This document shows positions 20,639 through 44,544 of a stretch of DNA of 64,000 nt, piece by piece. The notes below the pieces were generated by a model. The model made no database searches. It was not told where the DNA came from and saw nothing but the letters and a program-made list of their open reading frames with translations. The stretch is from Thermoanaerobaculia bacterium (GTDB lineage Bacteria; Acidobacteriota; Thermoanaerobaculia; UBA5066): the NCBI GenBank assembly GCA_022071945.1, contig JAJVIN010000001.1, positions 310,001 to 374,000 of the forward strand, read 5' to 3'. The position numbers and the translations under genes were made by a program. Each line of letters begins with the position of its first letter. The stretch's first letter is position 1.

Positions 20639-21952
20639 ATGAGTCGGAAAGACCTGATCAGCTCGCCGCTTGCGAGGCTCCTGCGCCTGGGGGGGCTCGC
20701 CGGCCGGGTCGGACTCTCGATGGCGGCCCAGGAGATCGGCGGCCTTCTGGCTCCGAAAAAGCGCCACGAGACGCGCCGCCATCAGAGCCTCCTGAAGAAC
20801 GCGGCCCGCATCGCCGACACCCTGGGCCAGCTCAAGGGAGCGGCGATGAAGGTCGGGCAGATGTTGAGCCTTCACGAGACGATCCTGCCCCCGGAAGTCG
20901 TGGAGGTGCTGCAGGCCCTTCAAAAGCACGCCCCGCCCGTCCCCTTCGAGAGCGTCGAGAAAGAGCTCGAGGCAAGACTCCCGGACCGTGGCCGGATCTT
21001 CGCCGAAATCGAACCGGAGGCCTTCGCCGCCGCGTCGATCGGACAGGTCCACAGGGGACGGCTCCGCGACGGACGCGAGGTGGCCATCAAGATCCAGTAT
21101 CCGGGCATCGACCGGGTGATCGAGGCCGACCTCGCCAATCTGAAGAGGGTCTTGAAGAGCGTCATCGCCCTGGTGGCCGACATCAAGTTCGACCCGATCT
21201 GGCTGGAACTTCGAGACCGGCTCCGGGAAGAGCTCGACTACGAAAGAGAAGCCGCGACGATCGAGCGGATGGCGGAGCTGCATGCAGAGGTTCCGGGGAT
21301 CGTCATCCCGCGTGTCGTCCCCAAGGGAACGGCCAGGACGGTCCTGACGACCGAGCTCGTCGAGGGGCTGCCCGGCAACGAGGCGTGCGACGAATCGATC
21401 GACCAGCGGGTGAGGAATCGCTGGGGGTTGACCCTCTTCGAGTTCCTGCTTCGAGGGCTCTTCACAAACCGGCTCCTGCATGCCGACCCCAACCTCGCGA
21501 ACTTCGCGTTCCTTCCCGACGGCCGGGTCGTCGTCTACGACTTCGGCTGCGTCAAGGAGATCCCGCCACGGCTCCTCTCCGGCTACAAGAAGCTCTGTTC
21601 CGCCGCCCTTTTCGGAAGAGGCGAGGAGATCCCGGGGATCCTCGCGGGCATGGGAGTCCATCGCGCAGACGGATCTCCCTTGCCCGGCGAGATGGTCTTT
21701 CCCTACCTCGACCTCATCATGGAGGTCCTCGAGCCCGGCGACTCGTACCGGTTCGGCGAGGACAGCCGGGTCTACCGGCGTCTCATCGATCTGGCGTGGT
21801 CGAACATCGGGAACGCCTCGGATATACGGTTCCCAAGGGACATCATCTTCATCAACCGGACGGTCGTCGGACACTTCGGCAACCTCTCGAGGCTGAGAGC
21901 TTCCGGACCCTGGCGGGATCGCGTCCTGAGATTCTCGGGCGCCAGGGAGTGA
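20639..21952 (+). CDS. ABC1/AarF/UbiB-family atypical kinase
   Basis: 437 residues. It carries the family's KxGQ motif (KVGQMLSL), the alanine-rich nucleotide loop AAASIGQVH, the lysine in VAIKIQYPG, HADPNLANF and the YDFGCVKE metal motif. UbiB/ADCK-type proteins are ATP-binding and support isoprenoid quinone synthesis or lipid homeostasis at the membrane. No clear C-terminal membrane hairpin, unlike canonical UbiB, so it belongs with the soluble ABC1/ADCK branch. ATG 20639 has no strong ribosome site. Stands alone, 126 bp before glnE. Confidence 0.88.
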   Translation: MSRKDLISSPLARLLRLGGLAGRVGLSMAAQEIGGLLAPKKRHETRRHQSLLKNAARIADTLGQLKGAAMKVGQMLSLHETILPPEVVEVLQALQKHAPPVPFESVEKELEARLPDRGRIFAEIEPEAFAAASIGQVHRGRLRDGREVAIKIQYPGIDRVIEADLANLKRVLKSVIALVADIKFDPIWLELRDRLREELDYEREAATIERMAELHAEVPGIVIPRVVPKGTARTVLTTELVEGLPGNEACDESIDQRVRNRWGLTLFEFLLRGLFTNRLLHADPNLANFAFLPDGRVVVYDFGCVKEIPPRLLSGYKKLCSAALFGRGEEIPGILAGMGVHRADGSPLPGEMVFPYLDLIMEVLEPGDSYRFGEDSRVYRRLIDLAWSNIGNASDIRFPRDIIFINRTVVGHFGNLSRLRASGPWRDRVLRFSGARE

Positions 21953-22078
21953 CCGCTGCAATAGCCGCTGCCTTTCGCGAGAGAATCCGGGAGTGCCAGT
22001 CGTTCACGGCAAACGGCAAGCCGTCCGGCCAGGACCCCGCGGACCGTCGGGGCCGGGGTGGACGAAACGGGAGACTCC

Positions 22079-25000
22079 ATGCGGCGGGGCGTGAGCACGG
22101 AGTGTCGCGAGGTCCTCCTCGGAACCGGTCTTGGCGACGATCGAGTCCGGGAGCTCCTGTCGCCCGCCGGCTTCACCGACTGGCGAGGGGCGGAAAGAGC
22201 TCTGAGGCAGCTCGCAAGAGGGGGCCACACCGCGCAGGTCGCCTCGATCCTGCCGCACTTGCTCGCGACGATCTCGATGGCGGGCGATCCGGATGGGGTT
22301 CTCGTGAACCTCGAGCGGTTTGCCTCCGGAAGTCCGAATCGAGGGGAGCTCTTCCTCTACCTCGAAAAGAACCCGCGGGCGGTCGAGGTCCTCGTGGCTC
22401 TGTTTTCCGGGAGCCAGTTCCTGACCGAGATCCTGCTCCTCTACCCCGAGCTCTTCTCGCGCCTGGCAAACCCGAGGAGTCTGGCCATCGCCAAGAGCGC
22501 CGACCGGCTGACGGCTGAAGCAGAAGCCGCCTCGGAAAGCGGCGGGACTCTCGCGGAGAAGCTCGATGCGCTGAGGAGGTTCCAGCGGCTGGAACTCCTC
22601 AGGATTGGAGTCTCGGACCTCCTCGGACTCTTCGACCTGGCGACCGTCACGGAACAGCTTTCCAACCTCGCGGACGGCCTGGTGCGTGCCTGCCTGTCCG
22701 CCACGGCGTCAGACACCGGGACGGATCTCTCCGGCTTTGCGGTCCTGGCGATGGGCAAGCTCGGCGGCCGCGAGCTGAACTACAGCTCGGACATCGACCT
22801 TCTGTTCCTGGCCCGGTCGGACGTGACGTCGTACTGGCGGCTCGGACGCAAGCTCATCGACGCGCTCGGGGCCGCGACCGGGGAGGGCTTCCTCTACAGG
22901 GTCGACATGCGGCTGCGCCCCTGGGGAGAGGCCGGGGCGCTCGTCACCTCACCCGAGGGCTATGTCTCGTACCTCGACCGGCACGCGAGGCTGTGGGAAA
23001 AGCAGGCTCTGATGAAAGCCCGAACGATCGCGGGTGACGAGACAGTGGGACGGGAGTTTCTCGACAGGATCGCTCCTCTTCTCTTCGGCTCGAGCGTCGA
23101 GACGACCCGAAGCCACGTCCACGCGATGAAGCAGAAGACCGAGAGCGTCCTGCGCCGGCAAGGCCTGGGCCGGCGCGAAGTGAAGCTCGGCGAGGGCTCG
23201 ATTCGCGACATCGAGTTCGTCGCCCAGTTCCTGCAGCTCGCCCATGGCGCCTCTCACCCCGAGATCCGAAGCCCGCGCACCCTCGAGGCCCTGGGACGGC
23301 TGACGTGCGCCGGATTCTTGACCGAGCAGGAGTTCCGGGTGCTCGCGGAGGGGTACCGGTTTCTCCGGACGATCGAGCACCACCTCCAGATCATGCACTA
23401 CCGGCAGACACACATTCTGCCCGACGAACCCGAGGCCCTCGGCCAGCTCGCGCGCCGGCTCGGCTTCACGGGAGAGGGAGCGGGCGCGGAGTTCCTTTCC
23501 CGCTACCAGCAGCACGCGGCCGCCATTCGAGCCATCTACGTTCGCCACCTCGGCTCCGAGAGAAAGGAGAGCGCCATCACACAAGCCGCCATCTCCGCGA
23601 ATCCCCAGATCCGCGAGCACGTGCTGCGGATGGACCCCTCCTACACGACGGCCTTCAGCGACGACGAGATCAAGAAGCACGCGCTGCTGGCCGACGGCCT
23701 GAAGGACGAGAAGCCGGTCGAGGTCGAGGCGATCACGCTCGGCGAAGGCCTGTGGCGCGTGACGATCGTCGGCTACGACTATCCAGGCGAGCTGTCGGTC
23801 ATCTGCGGGCTCCTCTTCGCGTTCGGGTTCAGCATTCACGATGGGAACGTCTTCACCTACGAGCCGGCCGGGAGCTCCCCCGTCACGCCAGGGTCCTACC
23901 CGTACCGGGGAGGAGCGTTCCGGGGAATCGGCGACGAGTTCTCCCCGAGGCGCCGGTTCGTTCCGGCGCCGCGCAGCTACAGGCGCAAGATCGTCGACGT
24001 CTTCACCGTCAAGAGCGAACGGACGGATCGAGACGCCGCGGTCTGGGACCAGTACGCATCGGATCTGCGGATGCTCTTGCGGCTCATGCAGGAAGGCCGG
24101 ACTCGCGAGGCGCGCGGAGTCGTCGCCAAGAGGGCCGCCGCGACCCTCTCCGAGGGGCAGAGCCCGGCATCGACCCTCTACCCCGTCGACGTCGAGATCG
24201 ACAACACGATCTCGGAGCGCTACACGGTCTTGAGGATCGACTCTCTCGACACGGTCGGGTTCCTTTACGAACTGACGAACGCCCTGGCGCTCTCGGACAT
24301 CTACATCGCGCGCGTGACGTGCGAATCCACGGGAAGCCGCCTGCACGACATCCTCTGGGTCGTCGACGCCAACGGCAAGAAGATCACCTCCTTGGAGAAA
24401 CAGAGGGAGCTCCGCGCCGCGACCGTCTTGATCAAGCACTTCACCCATCTCTTGCCCCGCTCCCCCAACCCGGAGTCGGCTCTTCTGCACTTCGGTGAGC
24501 TCGTCACGCAGCTGCTCGGCCGCCGGGACTGGGCCGGGGAGCTCGCTTCGCTCGAGAGGCCGCGAGTCCTCGACGCCGTCGCTCAGATCCTCGGCGTGAG
24601 CGACTTCCTCTGGGACGACTTCCTCAGGATGCAGCACGAGAACCTCTTCCCGGTCGTTCAGGAAGCGGGCGAGGAGGCGAGCCGGAAGAGCCGCGAAAAG
24701 CTGAGGATGGAACTCGAACGGACGCTCGAGCTCGTGAGGGAAGCAGCGGAGCCCGACGGCCTGGCGGAGGCCTGGCGGGTCTCTCTGAATGCATTCAAGG
24801 ACCGCGAGCTCTTCCGGATTGACATGCGGCACATCCTCGGTCAGACGGCGGAATTCGAGGAGTTCTCCGAGGAGTTGACGGAGCTGGCCGAGGTGGTCGT
24901 CGAGGCCGTCGTCGAGATGTGTCTCGAGGAGCTTCGGGGCGTCTATGGCGACCCGGTCCTGGACGATGGACAGCCCTGCCCGCTCTCGGTTCTGGCCCTC

Positions 25001-25828
25001 GGAAAGTGCGGCGGGAAGGAACTGGGCTTCGCGTCGGACATCGAGCTGCTCTTCGTCTACGGCGGGAATGGAAGGACGAGTGGCGGGCATGGCATCACGA
25101 CGGCCGAGTTCTTCGAGAAGCTCGTCCAGTCGTTCGTCTCCTCGATCCGCACCAAGCGGGAGGGGATCTTCGAGATCGACCTCAGGCTGCGCCCGTATGG
25201 CAAGGCCGGGACGATGGCCGTCTCTTTCGACTCGTTCCGGCGGTACTTCGCCCCGCGCGGACCGGCCTGGGCGTACGAGCGCCAGGCGCTCATCAAGCTG
25301 CGTCCGATCGCGGGCGACGCGCCGTTCGGCCAGCAGATCTCGACCCTCAGGGACGAGTTCGTCTACATGGGCGAGCCCTTTGACGTGACGGCCATGCGGG
25401 CGATGAGGGAGCGGCAGCTGCGTCACCTCGTGACACCCGGAACGAGCAACGCGAAGTACTCGCCAGGAGCGCTGGCGGACATCGAGTACCTCATCCAGGG
25501 GCTGCAGATCCGGCACGGGGCGTCGGAGCCGTCGGTGAGAGTGGAGAACACCCGGGCGGCGATGGCGGCTCTTGCCGCCGCTTCTCTCCTCACGGCGGCC
25601 GACCATGCCAAGCTCAGGAAGGCCCACACCTTCTTCCGCTGGCTCATCGACGCCCTCAGGGTCGTCAGAGGAAACGCGATGGACGTGACGGTTCCGGCGT
25701 TCGGGACCGAGGAGTTCGCCTTCCTGGCTCGCAGGCTGCGCTACGGAGGGGATGCGGCGCGGCTCCGAGAAGAGTTCTCGACCTTCACGGCCAACGTTCA
25801 GGAGATGAGCGCGCGGCTTCTGGTGTGA
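22079..25828 (+). CDS. glnE: bifunctional glutamine synthetase adenylyltransferase/deadenylase GlnE with inserted ACT-like region
   Basis: 1249 residues, ~300 longer than typical GlnE (about 950). Two nucleotidyltransferase domains are recognisable: GKLGGRELNYSSDIDLLF near residue 226 (deadenylylase position) and GKCGGKELGFASDIELLF near 974 (adenylyltransferase position, with DxE instead of DxD). Each is followed by the GlnE helical domain (IRDIEFVAQFLQLAHG near 376; ADIEYLIQGLQIRHG near 1130). Between them (~540-770) lie two ACT-like segments, WRVTIVGYDYPGELSVICGL and YTVLRIDSLDTVGFLYELTN, the sensor type found at the C-terminus of GlnD. The ATG at 22079 has GGGAG upstream; GTG 22058 is possible. 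It is convergent with glnA, its expected target. Confidence 0.88.
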   Translation: MRRGVSTECREVLLGTGLGDDRVRELLSPAGFTDWRGAERALRQLARGGHTAQVASILPHLLATISMAGDPDGVLVNLERFASGSPNRGELFLYLEKNPRAVEVLVALFSGSQFLTEILLLYPELFSRLANPRSLAIAKSADRLTAEAEAASESGGTLAEKLDALRRFQRLELLRIGVSDLLGLFDLATVTEQLSNLADGLVRACLSATASDTGTDLSGFAVLAMGKLGGRELNYSSDIDLLFLARSDVTSYWRLGRKLIDALGAATGEGFLYRVDMRLRPWGEAGALVTSPEGYVSYLDRHARLWEKQALMKARTIAGDETVGREFLDRIAPLLFGSSVETTRSHVHAMKQKTESVLRRQGLGRREVKLGEGSIRDIEFVAQFLQLAHGASHPEIRSPRTLEALGRLTCAGFLTEQEFRVLAEGYRFLRTIEHHLQIMHYRQTHILPDEPEALGQLARRLGFTGEGAGAEFLSRYQQHAAAIRAIYVRHLGSERKESAITQAAISANPQIREHVLRMDPSYTTAFSDDEIKKHALLADGLKDEKPVEVEAITLGEGLWRVTIVGYDYPGELSVICGLLFAFGFSIHDGNVFTYEPAGSSPVTPGSYPYRGGAFRGIGDEFSPRRRFVPAPRSYRRKIVDVFTVKSERTDRDAAVWDQYASDLRMLLRLMQEGRTREARGVVAKRAAATLSEGQSPASTLYPVDVEIDNTISERYTVLRIDSLDTVGFLYELTNALALSDIYIARVTCESTGSRLHDILWVVDANGKKITSLEKQRELRAATVLIKHFTHLLPRSPNPESALLHFGELVTQLLGRRDWAGELASLERPRVLDAVAQILGVSDFLWDDFLRMQHENLFPVVQEAGEEASRKSREKLRMELERTLELVREAAEPDGLAEAWRVSLNAFKDRELFRIDMRHILGQTAEFEEFSEELTELAEVVVEAVVEMCLEELRGVYGDPVLDDGQPCPLSVLALGKCGGKELGFASDIELLFVYGGNGRTSGGHGITTAEFFEKLVQSFVSSIRTKREGIFEIDLRLRPYGKAGTMAVSFDSFRRYFAPRGPAWAYERQALIKLRPIAGDAPFGQQISTLRDEFVYMGEPFDVTAMRAMRERQLRHLVTPGTSNAKYSPGALADIEYLIQGLQIRHGASEPSVRVENTRAAMAALAAASLLTAADHAKLRKAHTFFRWLIDALRVVRGNAMDVTVPAFGTEEFAFLARRLRYGGDAARLREEFSTFTANVQEMSARLLV

Positions 25829-25974: not shown

Positions 25975-27387
25975 CTAGGCGTCGAAGTAGAGGGCGAACT
26001 CCCACGGATGGGGCCGAAGCCGCATGGCGCTGACTTCCGCCGACATCTTGTATTCGATCCAGGTCTCGACGACGTCCTCGGTGAAGACGTCGCCCTTGAG
26101 CAGGAACTCGTGGTCGTTCTTCAGATTGTCGAGGGCCTCGTCGAGGCTGGCCGGCATGCCGGGCACGTCCTTGAGCTCCTCGGGGGTGAGGGAGTAGATG
26201 TCCTTGTCGAGGGGCTCACCCGGCGAGAGCCGCTTCTGGATGCCGTCCAGGCCCGCCATGAGCATCGCGGCGAAACCGAGGTAGCCATTGCACGTCGGAT
26301 CCGGGAAGCGGACCTCGATGCGCTTGGCCTTCGGGCTCGGGCTGTACATCGGGATTCTGACCGCGGCACTGCGGTTGCGGCTCGAGTAGGCGAGGTTGAC
26401 CGGCGCCTCGAAGCCGGGCACGAGACGGCGATAGCTGTTGGTCGTGGGGTTGGTGAAGGCCGCGAGCGCCCCGGCGTGCTTGAGGATCCCGCCGATGTAG
26501 TGCATCGCGAGCTCGCTCATCCCGCCGTAGCCGTCCCCCGCGAAGAGAGGCTCGCCGCCCTTCCAGATGCTCTGGTGAACGTGCATGCCGCTGCCGTTGT
26601 CTCCGAAGATCGGCTTGGGCATGAACGTGACCGTCTTGTTGTGGCGCCGCGCGACGTTCTTGACGATGTACTTGAACCACATCAGGGCGTCGGCCATCCG
26701 GACGAGAGGCAGGAATCGCATGTCGATCTCGGCCTGTCCCGCTGTCGCCACCTCGTGGTGCTGGCGCTCGACCCGGTATCCGACGCTCTCCATCATCAGG
26801 ACCATTTCCGTCCGGATGTCCTGCTGGCTATCCGTCGGTCCGACGGGGAAGTAGCCCTCCTTGTAGCGCGGCTTGTACCCGAGGTTGGGCTTCTCGTCCC
26901 GGCCTGTGTTCCACTGTCCCTCGACGGAGTCGAGGAAGTAGTAGCCCGAGTGCTGGTTCTGCCCGTAGCGGATGTCGTCGAGGATGAAGAACTCCGGCTC
27001 GGGTCCGAAATTCGCGGTGTCGCCGATTCCGGTCGACTTCAGGTAGGCCTCGGCCTTCCGAGCGATGTTGCGGGGATCTCTGGAGTACTCCTCCTTCGTG
27101 ATCGGGTCGACGATGTTGCAGATGAGAGAGAGGGTGCGGTCCTTCATGAAGGGATCCATGACGGCCGTGGCCGGATCCGGCATCACGAGCATGTCGCTGG
27201 CATGGATGGGCTGCCACCCGCGGATCGAGGACCCGTCGAATCCGAGGCCTTCCTCGAACACCGACTCGTCGATCTCGCTTGGCGACGTCGTGAAGTGCTG
27301 CCAGAGGCCGAGGAAGTCGTTGAACTTGAAGTCCACCGCCACGGCGCCCTGCTTCTTCATGAACTCGATCACTTCTTTGGGGGTCAT
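25975..27387 (-). CDS. glnA: glutamine synthetase type I
   Basis: 470 residues, the normal GSI length. It makes glutamine from glutamate, ammonia and ATP as a cytoplasmic dodecamer. Seen motifs: [16 protein letters not shown], the ATP-binding [22 protein letters not shown](V)PG, and [13 protein letters not shown]. Tyr398 in [11 protein letters not shown] lines up with the adenylylated tyrosine of enterobacterial GS, so this enzyme can be a GlnE substrate, and glnE is its convergent neighbour. Transcription probably starts from a sigma-54 promoter ~75 bp upstream. The ribosome site before ATG 27387 is AGGAGAA, near the start. Confidence 0.96.
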
Positions 27388-29581: not shown

Positions 29582-30931
29582 ATGCTCGTAGGGATATCGA
29601 GCTCGGCCGTGTACAGCTGGAAGGACTTTTTCGACGCAGCTCCGAGATACAAGTACTCCCGGACCCTGGGCCGGGGCGGGATGAGCATCGTCTTTCTGGC
29701 GGAAGATCAAGACCTGAACACGGAAGTCGCGGTCAAAGTCCTCTTCTCGCGGGCCGACCAGTTCGACACGGATGACACACTGGCTCGCCTCAAGCTCGAG
29801 GCGCAGATCAACCGCAAGATCCGGCACCCCAACGTGGCTCGGATCTTCGACATCGGCCAGGCGGGCGAGTTCTGGTTCCTGACGATGGAGTACATCCCCG
29901 GACAGGACCTCTCCAAGATCCTCGCCGACCGGGGCTCCATACCGGCGCGCGAGCTCGTCCCCATCATGCGCCAGGTCGCTCTGGGCGTCGGAGCCGCTCA
30001 CAACCTCGGCTTCATCCACCGGGATCTGAAGCCCTCGAACATCATGATCGACACGAACGGAGCGGCCGCGGTTCTGGATTTCGGCGTCGCACGCTCCGTC
30101 ACGGGTTCCGGCAGGACGGGCCCGGGAATCGTTCTGGGCACACCGGCCTTCCTTTCTCCCGAGCAGGCCACCGGTCAGGTCCTCGACGCCAGAAGCGACG
30201 TCTTCTCTCTCGGGACCGTGACGTATGCGGCCGTGACGGGCAAGCTCCCCTTCTGGGCCGACAAGCCGCTCGCGACCGCGATGGCCGTCGCCACCCAGCC
30301 CCCTCCGCTCGAGCCGCTGGAAAGGTGCGGCGCTCCTCAGGAGCTCATCGCCCTCATCTTGCGCTGCCTCGAGAAGGAGCCCTCGAAGAGGTTCGCCGAC
30401 GCCAACGAGCTCGAGACGGGGCTGGCACTCGTCCCCTTCAAGAAAGAGGCGCCCCTGCCGCCCGAGCTCGACGAGTCTCGCCTGATGTCGATCTTCGAGG
30501 AGCGGAGCGAGGAGGCCCTGCTCGACACGACGACGCTCCCGACGCGAACCCCCTGCATTCTCGTCGTCGACGACGATCCCCTCACCCGCAGCCTCCTGAA
30601 GCACCACCTCGAGACGGCGGGCTGCCTCGTCCTGGAGGCCGAGGACGGCATCGCGGCCCTGGAGGCAGTCCAGCACGGGCCGGACCTCATCCTGATGGAC
30701 ATCCGGATGCCGCGGATGGACGGCCTCGACGCCACCCGGATCATCAAGACAACTCCCGTGGGAGCCACCCTGCCCGTCGTGATCATGTCCGTCATCCGTG
30801 ACCGGTCCCGGCTCGCCTTCGCGCTCCAGTGCGGCGCGACCGACTTCATCCCCAAGCCCCTCGACATCACACGGACCCTGGCCACGATCAGCGATCTCCT
30901 CGCCCACAAGGGCCTGCGGCTCTCCGCGTAG
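29582..30931 (+). CDS. Ser/Thr protein kinase fused to a response-regulator receiver domain
   Basis: 449 residues, soluble. Residues ~23-285 are a complete Hanks-type kinase (LGRGGMSIVFLA, VAVKVLF, HRDLKPSNI, LDFGVARS, GTPAFLSPEQ). After a ~35-residue linker, residues ~322-445 are a CheY-like receiver with the acidic pocket VVDDDP, phosphoacceptor Asp373 in LMDIRMPRMDG, and the conserved Lys in FIPKPLD. All catalytic residues of both domains are intact, so a histidine kinase could gate Ser/Thr kinase output. No histidine kinase gene is adjacent. The start is uncertain: ATG 29582 lacks a ribosome site and GTG 29610 is possible. Confidence 0.88.
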   Translation: MLVGISSSAVYSWKDFFDAAPRYKYSRTLGRGGMSIVFLAEDQDLNTEVAVKVLFSRADQFDTDDTLARLKLEAQINRKIRHPNVARIFDIGQAGEFWFLTMEYIPGQDLSKILADRGSIPARELVPIMRQVALGVGAAHNLGFIHRDLKPSNIMIDTNGAAAVLDFGVARSVTGSGRTGPGIVLGTPAFLSPEQATGQVLDARSDVFSLGTVTYAAVTGKLPFWADKPLATAMAVATQPPPLEPLERCGAPQELIALILRCLEKEPSKRFADANELETGLALVPFKKEAPLPPELDESRLMSIFEERSEEALLDTTTLPTRTPCILVVDDDPLTRSLLKHHLETAGCLVLEAEDGIAALEAVQHGPDLILMDIRMPRMDGLDATRIIKTTPVGATLPVVIMSVIRDRSRLAFALQCGATDFIPKPLDITRTLATISDLLAHKGLRLSA

Positions 30932-39884: not shown

Positions 39885-42800
39885 CTACTTCGTGTCCATC
39901 GCCTCAACGCCCGTCCACCCTTCCGGGATCCCGTTCCTTTCGAGCTGCGCGGACCGCTCGAGATACATCCTCGCTGCCCTGTCGTTGCCATCGCGCGCAA
40001 GGACCGATTGAAAGAGCGGCATGGCATCGCGCATCCGGCCTGCCAGGTAGCACGCGAGGGCCTGTTCGAAGTCCGCACGGGTCTTCTCCTTGGCCTCGGC
40101 CACGTCCTCACGGTCTCCCGCGTAGACGTCGAAGACATCCACGGCGCTCGCCCGCCCCCGGACCCGCACCCTTCCCACGAATCGATGTGCAAGAGATTGT
40201 GGACGGGCAAGCTTGGTCCGAGTGTCTCCGCTCATGACGATCGAGACGCCGAAGTGCTTCGTCAGTCCCTCCATGCGGGCGGCGGTGTTGACGGTGTCGG
40301 AGATGACCCCGGTGTCCGTGCGGTTCTGGTCGCCGATGATGCCGAGGATCAGCCGCCCCGTGTGCAGCCCGATCCCGATCCGGATGGGGACTCTCCCCGT
40401 CCGTTCCCGCTCGCGGTTGTAAGCCGCCACTGCCTTTTGCATCTTCACGGCCGCGCCCGCCGCTTCCTCGCCCCGATGTGAAAAGAGCGCCATGATCCCG
40501 TCTCCGTAGTACTGATTGACGAAGCCCCCGTACTCCTCGATGACGGGGCCGACACGCCTGAGATAGGCATTGATGAAGGCGAAGTTGTCGCGGGGCGTCA
40601 TCGTCTCCGCGAGCGTCGTGTAGGACCTTATGTCCGAAAACAGGACTGTCATCTCGGCCTCGCGCTGGTCACCGAGCGACACATCGAGGACCGAATCACG
40701 CCCGAGCCTCTGGAGAAAGGCGTGGGGGACGAACCGCCACATCGCGGAGTTGATGCGCAGGAGCTTCAGGTGAGTCTCGACGCGAGACAGGAGTTCGTCT
40801 CTGGCGAAGGGCTTCGTGACGTAGTCGCTGGCTCCCGACTCGAACCCCGCGACGAGGTCGGAGACCTGGTTTTTCGCCGTGAGGAGAACCACGGGAAGCC
40901 TGTTCGGCGGGTGCGTCTCGCGAATCCTCTTGCAGACCTCGAGTCCCGACATCCTCGGCATCATCACGTCCAAGATCACGAGATCGAACTGGCGTCCCGA
41001 ATCGAGGATCGCGAGGGCCTCGGCTCCATTCCTCGCCGTTGCCACCGAGTACCGCTCGAGTTCGAGGTAGTTGGTGAGGACCCTCAGATTCACGGGCTCG
41101 TCGTCGACCGCGAGGATCCGGGCCCCGTGCGAATCACCTCCGGGCGTCTGCGGGCGGTCCGTAAGTTCATCCGGTGCGAGACGAGTCGACAGGTCCACGA
41201 CGTCTGAGCGCTCGGAACGGGGAGGGGTCCTCATTCCCGCCGCGAGCGGAAGGGTCACGACGAAGCGCGACCCCTTCCCCACTTCTGACTCGACTCGGAT
41301 CCGGCCGCCGTGGAGTTCGACGAGCTGGCGCGTGATTGACAGGCCGAGCCCCGTTCCGCCGTACTCCCTCTCGATCGACCCGTCCGCCTGCTCGAAGGGG
41401 TGGAAGATCCGCTCCCGGGCCTCCTCGGGAATGCCGATTCCGGTGTCGGTCACCGAAATTTCGAGGAAGCCCTCGACTCTCTCCGCGCCGAGTTCGACAG
41501 TTCCCTCCTGGGTGAACTTGATGGCGTTGCCGGCCAGGTTGTGAAGGATCTGCTGAAGACGGCCCTCGTCCGCAAGGACCGCCGGAGCGTCCGGCGGAAT
41601 TCGATTGACGAGCTCGAGCTTCTTGCCTTCGAGAAAGGGCCTGGAGAGCGCGAGGACGACATCGGCGAGAGGTCTGACGTCGACGGCTGTCTTCTTGAGT
41701 TCGAGCTGCCGGTTCTTCAGGCGCGAGAAGTCGAGGATGTCATTGACGAGGTGCGCCAGGCGTCTGCCGCTCGTCACGATCATTCCGAGGTTCTCTTTCG
41801 TGGCGGCGGAGAGTTCGCCCGTTGCACCCGCCAGAAGAGAGTCCGCGATTCCGATGATGCCGATGAGGGGTGTCCGGAGCTCGTGAGAGGTGTTGGCGAG
41901 GAACTCGTCCTTCAGACGGTCCGCGTGCCGGAGGCGGGCGCTGATCTCCCGCTCGCGCGTGACCTTCCGCCTCTGGGAAACGACGAAGAGAGCTGCCGCC
42001 GCGCCCGCTCCGAGGAGGTAGAGCGTGTAGGCCCACCAGGTTCTCCACGGGGCCGGGAGGATCCGGATCGGGATGCGGTCGCCGGTGGAACTCCAGACGC
42101 CCTCGCTGCTCCGGGCCTTCACGTGGAAGACGTAGCGGCCCGGATCGAGATTCGTGTAACTGGCGAAGTGGCGCGAACCCGCATCCACCCAGCCGGCATC
42201 GAAGCCCTCCATCCGGTAAGCGAAGCGGTTGCGTGCGGGATCCGTGAAATCGAGGGCCGCCATCTCGAAGGAGAAGACCGAGTCCCGGTGGGTCAGCCGG
42301 ACTTCGCCCCACCCGGTTGCCGGGCGCTCCAGCAGGGCCGGAGACTCGAATCGCTTCAGCTCGGTCACGACGACCGCAGGCGGCAAGGAGCCTTCTCCGG
42401 GCTGCTCCGGGTTGAAAATATTGAGGCCGTTCTCACCGCCGAAGAGGAGGCTTCCATCGGGACCCGCCGCCCGGGCGGAAGAGAAGACGTTGCCCTGAAG
42501 CCCGTCGTGAACGGTGAAGGTCCGAAACGAGCCCGACCTCTGATCGAGCCGGGCAAGCCCCCGGTTCGTCGAGACCCAGATCCGGCCATGCTGGTCCCCG
42601 AGGATCGCGTGAATCGTCCGGTTGGGCAGACCATCCGGCTCCCGGTACCAGGTCCGGCCGCCCGAGCGCCGGTCGAAGGCACAGAGACCGCCCTGGGTCC
42701 CGATCCAGAGGACTTCGGTGGCTGGATCCTCCCAGAGCGACAGGATGTTCTTTTCCGCGGGAGCCGCGGCTCCGATGCCGTGTCTGAGAATCTGTCCGCC

Positions 42801-44465
42801 GCGCGGATCTCGCGAGAGGAGTCCCTCCGCCTCGGTGCCCATCCAGAGAACCCCGTGACGGTCGACGAGCAGGACCTCGGCCTCACGCTGCCCTTCGTTC
42901 GGCCGGACGAGTTCGAGCCGATCGCCCTTCGGTGCCAGGCGATAGAGACCGGCCCGAGTCCCGACCCAGAGGCCCTCCTCCCGCCCGCTCGCGATCGAGG
43001 TGACTCTCTCGCTCCCGGACACCGGGGTGGACGGCGGGATCTGAACGAAGCCGTTGGAAGCGCGGTCGAACCGGGCGAGGCCGCCGTCCCACGTCCCGAC
43101 CCAGATCTGCCCCTTCCCGTCCCGGTGAAGCGCGTTGACGTTGTCGCTGGGAAGACTCCTGGGATTGGCGGCATCGTGGCGGTAGGAATGGAAGCGTCTC
43201 TGCCCCGCGTCCCTGCGAAGGAGACCCTTCTGCGTTCCCGCCCAGAGCGTCCCTTCCCGATCGACCAGAAGGGCAAAGACGGATCGTTCGGTCAGCTCGT
43301 CAGGTCCGATGTGTCCGAAGCGCTGAGGCCTGGGATCGAGGACTTGAACGCCGCCGCCGCGCGTCCCGATCCAGAGCATTCCCGACCGGTCCTCGCAGAG
43401 TGTCCGGACATCGTCGTGAGCCAAGGCGTTCACCCTGGAGGGGTCCTTTTCCCAGCGCTCGGTCTTGCCGGACTGGGGATCGAGGGCCGTGAGCCCGTCC
43501 CCCGCAAGGCCAACCCACAGAATTCCCTGCCGGTCCTCGAGGATCGTGTTCACGGGTGTTCCCGAGATCCCGTCTATGGAGGAGAACGCCCGGTCCTTTC
43601 CGTCGAATCGAAACAGTCCTCGTGCCGTACCCACCCAGAGGTTTCCCGTTCGGTCCATGAGGAGGGCTCGGACGGGACCGGCCGGTCCCTCCCCATCCGG
43701 AAGCCCCATCCGCTCGACCTTTCCGGTGTCTGGAGCGAGCCGGTCGAGTCCCCGTCCCGTGCCGATCCAGAGGGAACCGTCCTGATCTTGGGCGATCGCC
43801 CAGACTCGAGCGTCACTGAGCGACTGAGGATTTCCCGGATCCGGGGCGAAGGAGTGGATCACTCCGGTTTTCGGGTCGATCACGAAAAGGCCCGTGCTGT
43901 AGGTGCCGGCCCAGACCGCTCCCGAACGGTCCTGATAGAGCGTCTGGATCCTGAGATCGGGCAGCGGTCGGGCAGGCGGAGACGCAGGCGGCGGCTTCGT
44001 TGGGCCGTGTGAGTCCACCCTGTCACGGGAAACGGAAACGGCCGGAACGAATTTCCCCGTGACGGGATCGAGCCGGTCGAGCCCGCTCCCCCAGGAAGCG
44101 ACCCACATCCCGCCTCGGCCGTCGACCACGAGGGCACTGATGTCCGAACCGGAAAGGGCACCCGGGTGTCCTTCCTTGTCCGAAGCGGGCCGCTCGCTCC
44201 TGTAGACCGTCACGCCGTTGCCGTCGTACCGGTTCAGCCCATCCTGCGTGGCGATCCAGATGAAGCCGGTCGCATCCTGCCTGATCGCGTAGACGGAAGA
44301 GTGAGACAGGCCCTCCTCGATGCCGATGCGTCTGAGAGGCCGTTCGGTCAGGCCCTCGGCCTCCACAACACGGAGGGTTAGGAGAGCCGCCGCCGCCAGC
44401 AGCCACGGGAGTCCCGCTCGCATTCCTTGCAGCCACGACGAGCTCTTCGGCTGGCGTCTCTTCAT
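39885..44465 (-). CDS. giant sensor: beta-propeller, Y_Y_Y, histidine kinase, receiver, class III nucleotide cyclase
   Basis: 1526 residues. A signal/anchor helix (~17-35) is followed by about fourteen two-component-regulator propeller repeats (e.g. GFIWIATQDGLNRYDG) to ~690, a Y_Y_Y Ig-like domain, and a membrane helix near 775-795. Then come a HisKA domain with His861 in SHELRTPL, HATPase (GTGLGLSI), a receiver with Asp1166 in VILDVMMP, and a cyclase with metal Asp1278 in LFSDIRSY and YGDGIMALF. The adenine-specifying Lys position appears as Gln (NQYYGDG). A short TPR-like tail ends the protein. Periplasmic sensing could therefore yield both phosphotransfer and cyclic nucleotide. The start is uncertain (ATG 44465 or 44513), with no ribosome site. 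Confidence 0.88.
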   Translation of the reverse strand: MKRRQPKSSSWLQGMRAGLPWLLAAAALLTLRVVEAEGLTERPLRRIGIEEGLSHSSVYAIRQDATGFIWIATQDGLNRYDGNGVTVYRSERPASDKEGHPGALSGSDISALVVDGRGGMWVASWGSGLDRLDPVTGKFVPAVSVSRDRVDSHGPTKPPPASPPARPLPDLRIQTLYQDRSGAVWAGTYSTGLFVIDPKTGVIHSFAPDPGNPQSLSDARVWAIAQDQDGSLWIGTGRGLDRLAPDTGKVERMGLPDGEGPAGPVRALLMDRTGNLWVGTARGLFRFDGKDRAFSSIDGISGTPVNTILEDRQGILWVGLAGDGLTALDPQSGKTERWEKDPSRVNALAHDDVRTLCEDRSGMLWIGTRGGGVQVLDPRPQRFGHIGPDELTERSVFALLVDREGTLWAGTQKGLLRRDAGQRRFHSYRHDAANPRSLPSDNVNALHRDGKGQIWVGTWDGGLARFDRASNGFVQIPPSTPVSGSERVTSIASGREEGLWVGTRAGLYRLAPKGDRLELVRPNEGQREAEVLLVDRHGVLWMGTEAEGLLSRDPRGGQILRHGIGAAAPAEKNILSLWEDPATEVLWIGTQGGLCAFDRRSGGRTWYREPDGLPNRTIHAILGDQHGRIWVSTNRGLARLDQRSGSFRTFTVHDGLQGNVFSSARAAGPDGSLLFGGENGLNIFNPEQPGEGSLPPAVVVTELKRFESPALLERPATGWGEVRLTHRDSVFSFEMAALDFTDPARNRFAYRMEGFDAGWVDAGSRHFASYTNLDPGRYVFHVKARSSEGVWSSTGDRIPIRILPAPWRTWWAYTLYLLGAGAAAALFVVSQRRKVTREREISARLRHADRLKDEFLANTSHELRTPLIGIIGIADSLLAGATGELSAATKENLGMIVTSGRRLAHLVNDILDFSRLKNRQLELKKTAVDVRPLADVVLALSRPFLEGKKLELVNRIPPDAPAVLADEGRLQQILHNLAGNAIKFTQEGTVELGAERVEGFLEISVTDTGIGIPEEARERIFHPFEQADGSIEREYGGTGLGLSITRQLVELHGGRIRVESEVGKGSRFVVTLPLAAGMRTPPRSERSDVVDLSTRLAPDELTDRPQTPGGDSHGARILAVDDEPVNLRVLTNYLELERYSVATARNGAEALAILDSGRQFDLVILDVMMPRMSGLEVCKRIRETHPPNRLPVVLLTAKNQVSDLVAGFESGASDYVTKPFARDELLSRVETHLKLLRINSAMWRFVPHAFLQRLGRDSVLDVSLGDQREAEMTVLFSDIRSYTTLAETMTPRDNFAFINAYLRRVGPVIEEYGGFVNQYYGDGIMALFSHRGEEAAGAAVKMQKAVAAYNRERERTGRVPIRIGIGLHTGRLILGIIGDQNRTDTGVISDTVNTAARMEGLTKHFGVSIVMSGDTRTKLARPQSLAHRFVGRVRVRGRASAVDVFDVYAGDREDVAEAKEKTRADFEQALACYLAGRMRDAMPLFQSVLARDGNDRAARMYLERSAQLERNGIPEGWTGVEAMDTK

Positions 44466-44544
44466 CGCGAGAAAGGAGGTTACATCGAGGTCTTGCCCCG
44501 AGTCCGCCCGCATCGGCAGGCGGCGCCAGAACCTCCGGCCGAAC

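Follow-up and report, generated by a model that had tools for sequence, protein, structure and literature searches.

The window—the whole 64,000-nucleotide stretch analysed here, from the genome of a Thermoanaerobaculia bacterium—carries a gene for GlnE, the adenylylating and deadenylylating enzyme of glutamine synthetase (GS), in which a pair of ACT domains lies between the two catalytic halves (Table 1). We refer to the protein as GlnE-ACT. A reading of the DNA made from its letters only had described an unbroken frame of 1249 residues with two GlnE nucleotidyltransferase motifs, and this holds: the frame has no stops, and Pfam identifies in it GlnE domains (9e-100) and GlnD_UR_UTase domains, two of each, PF03710 occurring twice in one chain with PF08335 after each. 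A longer version starting from a GTG at 22058 is possible. The protein exceeds the curated GlnE cut-off of NCBIfam (PRK11072/NF008292; 564 versus 487 bits). A scan for promoters and terminators gave nothing above chance. Directly upstream, on the same strand, is a gene for a UbiB/ABC1-type atypical kinase (20639–21952) whose matches fall far below the UbiB cut-off; a similar gene occurs near glnE-ACT in only one relative locus.

Table 1. Features of the glnE-ACT locus (positions in the window)
Feature	Position	Strand	Basis or remark
glnE-ACT CDS	22079..25828	+	1249 aa; ATG start; ribosome-binding-like GGGAG a few bases upstream
AT-N nucleotidyltransferase domain (PF03710), expected deadenylylase half	22388..23062	+	Pfam; sequence match to 3k7d, 1v4a
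AT-N catalytic motif DID (D238, D240)	22790..22798	+	invariant, 61/61
GlnD_UR_UTase helical domain (PF08335), N half	23123..23536	+	Pfam
Connector before ACT1	23552..23716	+	around H..RMD.SY...F...EI..HA aligns with pre-ACT1 segment of GlnD
ACT1, residues 547-671	23717..24091	+	internal low-pLDDT loop; D567 61/61, G570 60/61
ACT2, residues 700-794	24176..24460	+	D724, T725, G727, F728, L729, Y730 each 61/61
AT-C nucleotidyltransferase domain (PF03710), expected adenylylase half	24575..25339	+	Pfam
AT-C catalytic motif DIE (D987, E989)	25037..25045	+	invariant, 61/61; DxD in E. coli and canonical GlnE read
Second GlnD_UR_UTase domain	25409..25819	+	domain match
glnA, type I glutamine synthetase, convergent neighbour, presumed substrate	25975..27387	-	model match
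Tyr398 codon of GlnA, matching E. coli adenylylation site Tyr397	26194..26196	-	sequence

In its general plan GlnE-ACT resembles the canonical GlnE of E. coli (1v4a, 3k7d). Both have two homologous nucleotidyltransferase halves with PF08335, at 32% pairwise identity, and share the AT-N motif SSDIDL; both halves of GlnE-ACT match 1v4a and 3k7d by sequence. Canonical GlnE has no ACT domains, only a short central regulatory linker, whereas GlnE-ACT carries the ACT pair in this linker, and its two active sites are further apart: the spacing is 704–755, versus 528 in E. coli GlnE and 476–609 in canonical relatives. In the E. coli enzyme the linker site is the central regulatory domain (PMC12409994).

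The insert is some 290 residues long, and its elements—connector, ACT1, linker, ACT2—follow one another as they do in the C-terminal sensor of GlnD. Residues 499–781 align to positions 609–844 of the GlnD model TIGR01693, which are its ACT–ACT end. A profile built from 61 insert sequences aligns collinearly with actual GlnD proteins, and the alignment extends to the connector before ACT1; against PDB sequences its ACT matches were weak only. ACT2 exceeds the cut-off of PF24931, the model for plant ACR9 (30.5 versus 27 bits), and PF01842 stays below its own on the insert (15.5 versus 27 bits). When residues 492–830 were modelled by AlphaFold with 60 relatives, two confident ACT folds were predicted (pLDDT 85.9, pTM 0.85). 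The ACT range of 530–780 proposed in the sequence-only reading is correct. Most of the top structural matches to the predicted insert are ACT proteins. They include aspartate kinase (Z 10.5), threonine deaminase (8.9), the mycobacterial large, 180-kDa glutamate dehydrogenase (8.6) and the arginine sensor CASTOR1 (7.3), in which an ACT pair or an ACT-like regulatory domain is matched; part of the list has an unspecific Z. The scores from Foldseek by itself were modest, with the mycobacterial glutamate dehydrogenase first. This dehydrogenase and CASTOR1 are different enzymes or receptors, and their likeness to the insert is known at the level of the fold.

Could the ACT-like segments have arisen by chance? 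The match to the GlnD model, the predicted folds and the conservation of the insert across phyla rule this out, as does the fact that ACT2 is conserved like a catalytic half (mean column identity 0.73, versus 0.71 for AT-C). Judged by homology and predicted structure, then, the insert is an ACT pair, and its collinearity with the sensor of GlnD is most simply explained if the GlnE linker contains a complete GlnD sensor module. GlnD also has a nucleotidyltransferase domain and PF08335 in front of its ACT pair, but GlnE-ACT differs from it in lacking the HD (uridylyl-removing) domain, in continuing beyond the ACT pair with a second nucleotidyltransferase half, and in scoring far below the TIGR01693 cut-off (94 versus 519 bits). 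The ACT repeats of plant ACR9 and ACR11 are close to those of GlnD, too, but unlike GlnE-ACT the plant proteins are free-standing ACT repeats with no catalytic domain. ACR proteins have been proposed as glutamine sensors linked to GS2/GLN2 (PMC3173338).

The residues on which function might depend are strongly conserved. All 61 aligned GlnE-ACT sequences have D.D in AT-N and D.E in AT-C, the latter as had been noticed at the outset for the window protein, and D.E recurs in a divergent copy from genus g18 and in two copies from the window's own family. Every canonical GlnE copy that we read has D.D in AT-C (SSDLDL in E. coli). This departure from DxD counts against the interpretation developed below. 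The nucleotidyltransferase superfamily tolerates glutamate in its D-x-[D/E] acidic pair, as in kanamycin nucleotidyltransferase, and such a pair is present in both halves of GlnE-ACT. In the ACT loops, the D..G motif has one exception in 122 (both ACTs of the 61 sequences): D567 and D724 are invariant, as is G727, and G570 is found in 60 of 61. Glycine at this place is a known mark of the ligand site in ACT domains (PMC3173338).

The convergent neighbour of glnE-ACT is glnA, and the association is not peculiar to the window. Of the relatives whose flanks reach at least 2.5 kb on both sides (n=40), 22 have glnA within the locus, across phyla. The motif around the target tyrosine in the linked GlnA is generally DKDLYDLPPEE, and every linked copy covering the site retains the tyrosine, the one exception being L077, a diverged paralogue. 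GlnE-ACT is therefore presumed, from sequence, to adenylylate and deadenylylate glutamine synthetase.

Peptide patterns taken from the window protein, which favour close relatives, were first run against about 85,000 species genomes and found 69 relatives at 47–61% identity. Most are from Anaerolineae; KSB1, Calditrichaeota and Fraserbacteria are also represented, along with single MAGs labelled Planctomycetaceae, Spirochaetales and Nitrospinota. The insert is present in 37 of 150 genomes of the class to which Anaerolinea thermolimosa belongs. In the window's own phylum it occurs at full strength in 15 of 396 sampled genomes, 14 of them from a single genus and the other being that of the window, and two further genomes of the window's family, G051 and G053, also encode GlnE-ACT. 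In the tree the window copy groups with those of G051 and G053 inside the Anaerolineae part, and this nesting suggests that the window lineage acquired GlnE-ACT horizontally. The copies of genus g18, from the same class as the window, are only 35% identical and form a deep branch. When the halves are analysed as separate sequences, each GlnE-ACT half forms its own clade with 100% support, apart from canonical GlnE, in a tree that does not resolve the root. A plasmid search gave only ordinary GlnE among the matches listed (n=5), and these served as outgroups. In openly available papers, a literature search found none on ACT domains in GlnE; GlnE-ACT is a conserved variant of GlnE that is apparently undescribed.

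In E. coli, GS is adenylylated by AT-C and freed of its AMP by AT-N, the choice between the two halves falling to PII or PII-UMP (PMC12409994). It is GlnD that reads glutamine (PMC4285133; PMC3173338), and its ACT domains are regarded as the sensor (PMC3173338). What has become of these partners where GlnE carries ACT domains of its own? Full-length GlnD is missing in 47 of 50 GlnE-ACT genomes, several of which are draft MAGs; the 47 include Leptolinea sp. HRD-7, whose genome is complete, and the cultured Anaerolinea thermolimosa and Leptolinea tardivitalis. In 19 of the 50 no PII match is found, and many others have only weak, distant PII-like matches. Three genomes (G005, G034 and G044) have GlnD and PII alongside GlnE-ACT. 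At Anaerolineae PII loci (L094–L099) the T-loop reads GRQGGI..RGGSYQVDMLPR, with a tyrosine at the Tyr51 position even though the genomes are without GlnD. As a control we looked at 46 genomes of the window's phylum that have canonical GlnE: 29 of these, too, lack GlnD. Ordinary GlnE without GlnD is thus common in the phylum, where GlnE can dispense with GlnD for other reasons, and so the loss of GlnD alone is no proof that ACT domains have replaced it; we rejected it as sole evidence for a bypass. Nevertheless, GlnD is present in 5 of 61 GlnE-ACT genomes versus 17 of 46 with canonical GlnE (Fisher p 5e-4, uncorrected for relatedness). Loss of GlnD is enriched with GlnE-ACT, but not exclusive to it.

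The host of the window, whose genome is 96% complete, does have a full-length glnD, and a simple statement that the gene is absent has to be rejected. The gene is an open frame (L010:1453-4368; G000 contig C40:38515-41049, minus) in which both ACT domains are kept. Its nucleotidyltransferase motif reads FSSVGL where others have SDVDL or SDLDL (DxD to SxG), and its HD motif reads LLHVIGK instead of LLHDIGK (HD to HV). A sequencing error is unlikely, as both catalytic centres are hit. The host GlnD is thus a candidate pseudoenzyme, which may survive as a glutamine-binding regulator, and its presence does not refute a bypass. There are four PII matches in the host, two of them too divergent to align at the T-loop. 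The other two, one linked to amtB (T-loop YRGTTVK) and one to metal-transport genes, have no tyrosine at the Tyr51 position. An intact glnD/glnB pair, which the sequence-only reading had named, together with PII-dependent GlnE activity, as evidence against its proposal, was therefore not found in the host: the E. coli-type partnership of a catalytic GlnD with a Tyr51 PII is broken on the side of GlnD and, among the PIIs aligned, on that of PII.

Its relatives differ. The sister genus represented by G051 has an intact GlnD, a PII with Tyr51 (YRGSEY) and GlnE-ACT on one contig, which means that the two systems can coexist. This contig, C117, encodes two types of PII (L149 and L160), one with Tyr51 and the other amtB-linked and without it, and it offers a ready-made comparison for the host. 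G053, from the same family, has GlnE-ACT but no GlnD, and no Tyr51 among the PIIs aligned. Genus g18 has no GlnD, and its PII gene, without Tyr51, adjoins amtB and glnE-ACT.

We think it probable, at roughly 60%, that GlnE-ACT is a GS adenylylase/deadenylylase that works independently of PII uridylylation, its own ACT pair gating it in response to an amino acid, most likely glutamine. On this reading the whole C-terminal sensor of GlnD would have been taken into the linker between the GlnE catalytic halves, and the amino acid would bind there. High glutamine would favour AT-C and so the adenylylation of Tyr398 on the adjacent GlnA, inactivating it; low glutamine would release AT-N, instead, and GlnA would be deadenylylated. 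Where an unmodifiable PII survives, it may add an input from 2-oxoglutarate and ATP. That the ligand is glutamine, that its binding switches the halves, and in which direction, we infer. Given that GlnE contains a GlnD sensor and that the relay is dead or absent, the most economical arrangement would be one in which glutamine gates the enzyme directly, and the occurrence of the hybrid in several phyla, mostly without GlnD, makes it probable that GlnE-ACT reads glutamine itself. Jiang, Mayo and Ninfa are said to have found in 2007 that E. coli GlnE responds to glutamine without any ACT domains; if so, the novelty here lies in a GlnD module within GlnE and in a lost relay, rather than in direct sensing as such. 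The original proposal, of an enzyme that senses glutamine directly and dispenses with the uridylylation cascade, thus stands in part. The architecture is confirmed, and the idea of a bypass of PII uridylylation is well supported, with a dead GlnD in the host, no Tyr51 in its aligned PIIs and 47 genomes without full-length GlnD; glutamine binding by the ACT pair, and control of activity through it, are the proposed part. Two cautions apply: GlnD loss is not exclusive to GlnE-ACT, and G051 keeps both systems.

Other arrangements have to be weighed. PII might remain the main controller, acting unmodified by way of 2-oxoglutarate and ATP/ADP, with the ACT pair serving as an accessory input or docking platform. 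The gene order in g18 fits this, as do the amtB-linked PII of the host and the persistence of canonical GlnE in many genomes without GlnD. It is harder to reconcile with the carriers that have no detectable PII or only distant matches to it, and with an ACT pair conserved as much as the catalytic half, and we regard it as rather unlikely. Somewhat less likely still, in our view, is that the switch is direct but that the ACT pair senses another amino acid or nitrogen metabolite. ACT domains as a class take many different amino acids as ligands, the proteins nearest to the insert in structure sense lysine/threonine, isoleucine and arginine, and the ACT2 loop reads DTxGFLYE where most GlnD proteins have the form DRPGLL. 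Yet the insert matches the GlnD sensor in both order and extent, down to the connector before ACT1, and the enzyme to which it is joined appears to act on the very protein that makes glutamine.

A hybrid of this kind might also substitute for GlnD, modifying PII instead of, or besides, glutamine synthetase; it does, after all, join a GlnD-like sensor to nucleotidyltransferase halves, and in some genomes PII genes are nearby. We consider this very improbable. Both halves match GlnE, above the NCBIfam cut-off, and not GlnD; there is no HD domain; the linked glnA retains its target tyrosine; and PII is undetectable in 19 of the 50 carriers and without Tyr51 in the host copies that could be aligned.

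The GlnD–PII–GlnE double cycle is a classic example of metabolic signal transduction, and a GlnD sensor in a conserved GlnE, where GlnD itself is lost or broken, suggests that the cascade can collapse into a single allosteric protein. We would give even odds to the broadest form of this idea, according to which a widespread one-protein circuit for GS—sensor, adenylylase and deadenylylase together—replaces GlnD–PII–GlnE, and would have reached the window lineage horizontally while the old cascade there decayed: one genus still has it intact, in the host it is dead, and another has lost it. GlnE-ACT would then be a minimal system for the control of GS adenylylation by glutamine without PII, and it would offer a reason for the persistence of GlnE in phyla short of GlnD, such as Chloroflexota. 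Elsewhere in the window are two further signalling genes. One (29582–30931, plus strand) encodes a serine/threonine protein kinase that has a response-regulator receiver domain fused at its C-terminus. The other (39885–44513, minus strand) encodes a hybrid sensor of 1542 aa that combines a two-component-regulator propeller, Y_Y_Y, histidine kinase and receiver domains with a C-terminal adenylate/guanylate cyclase domain.
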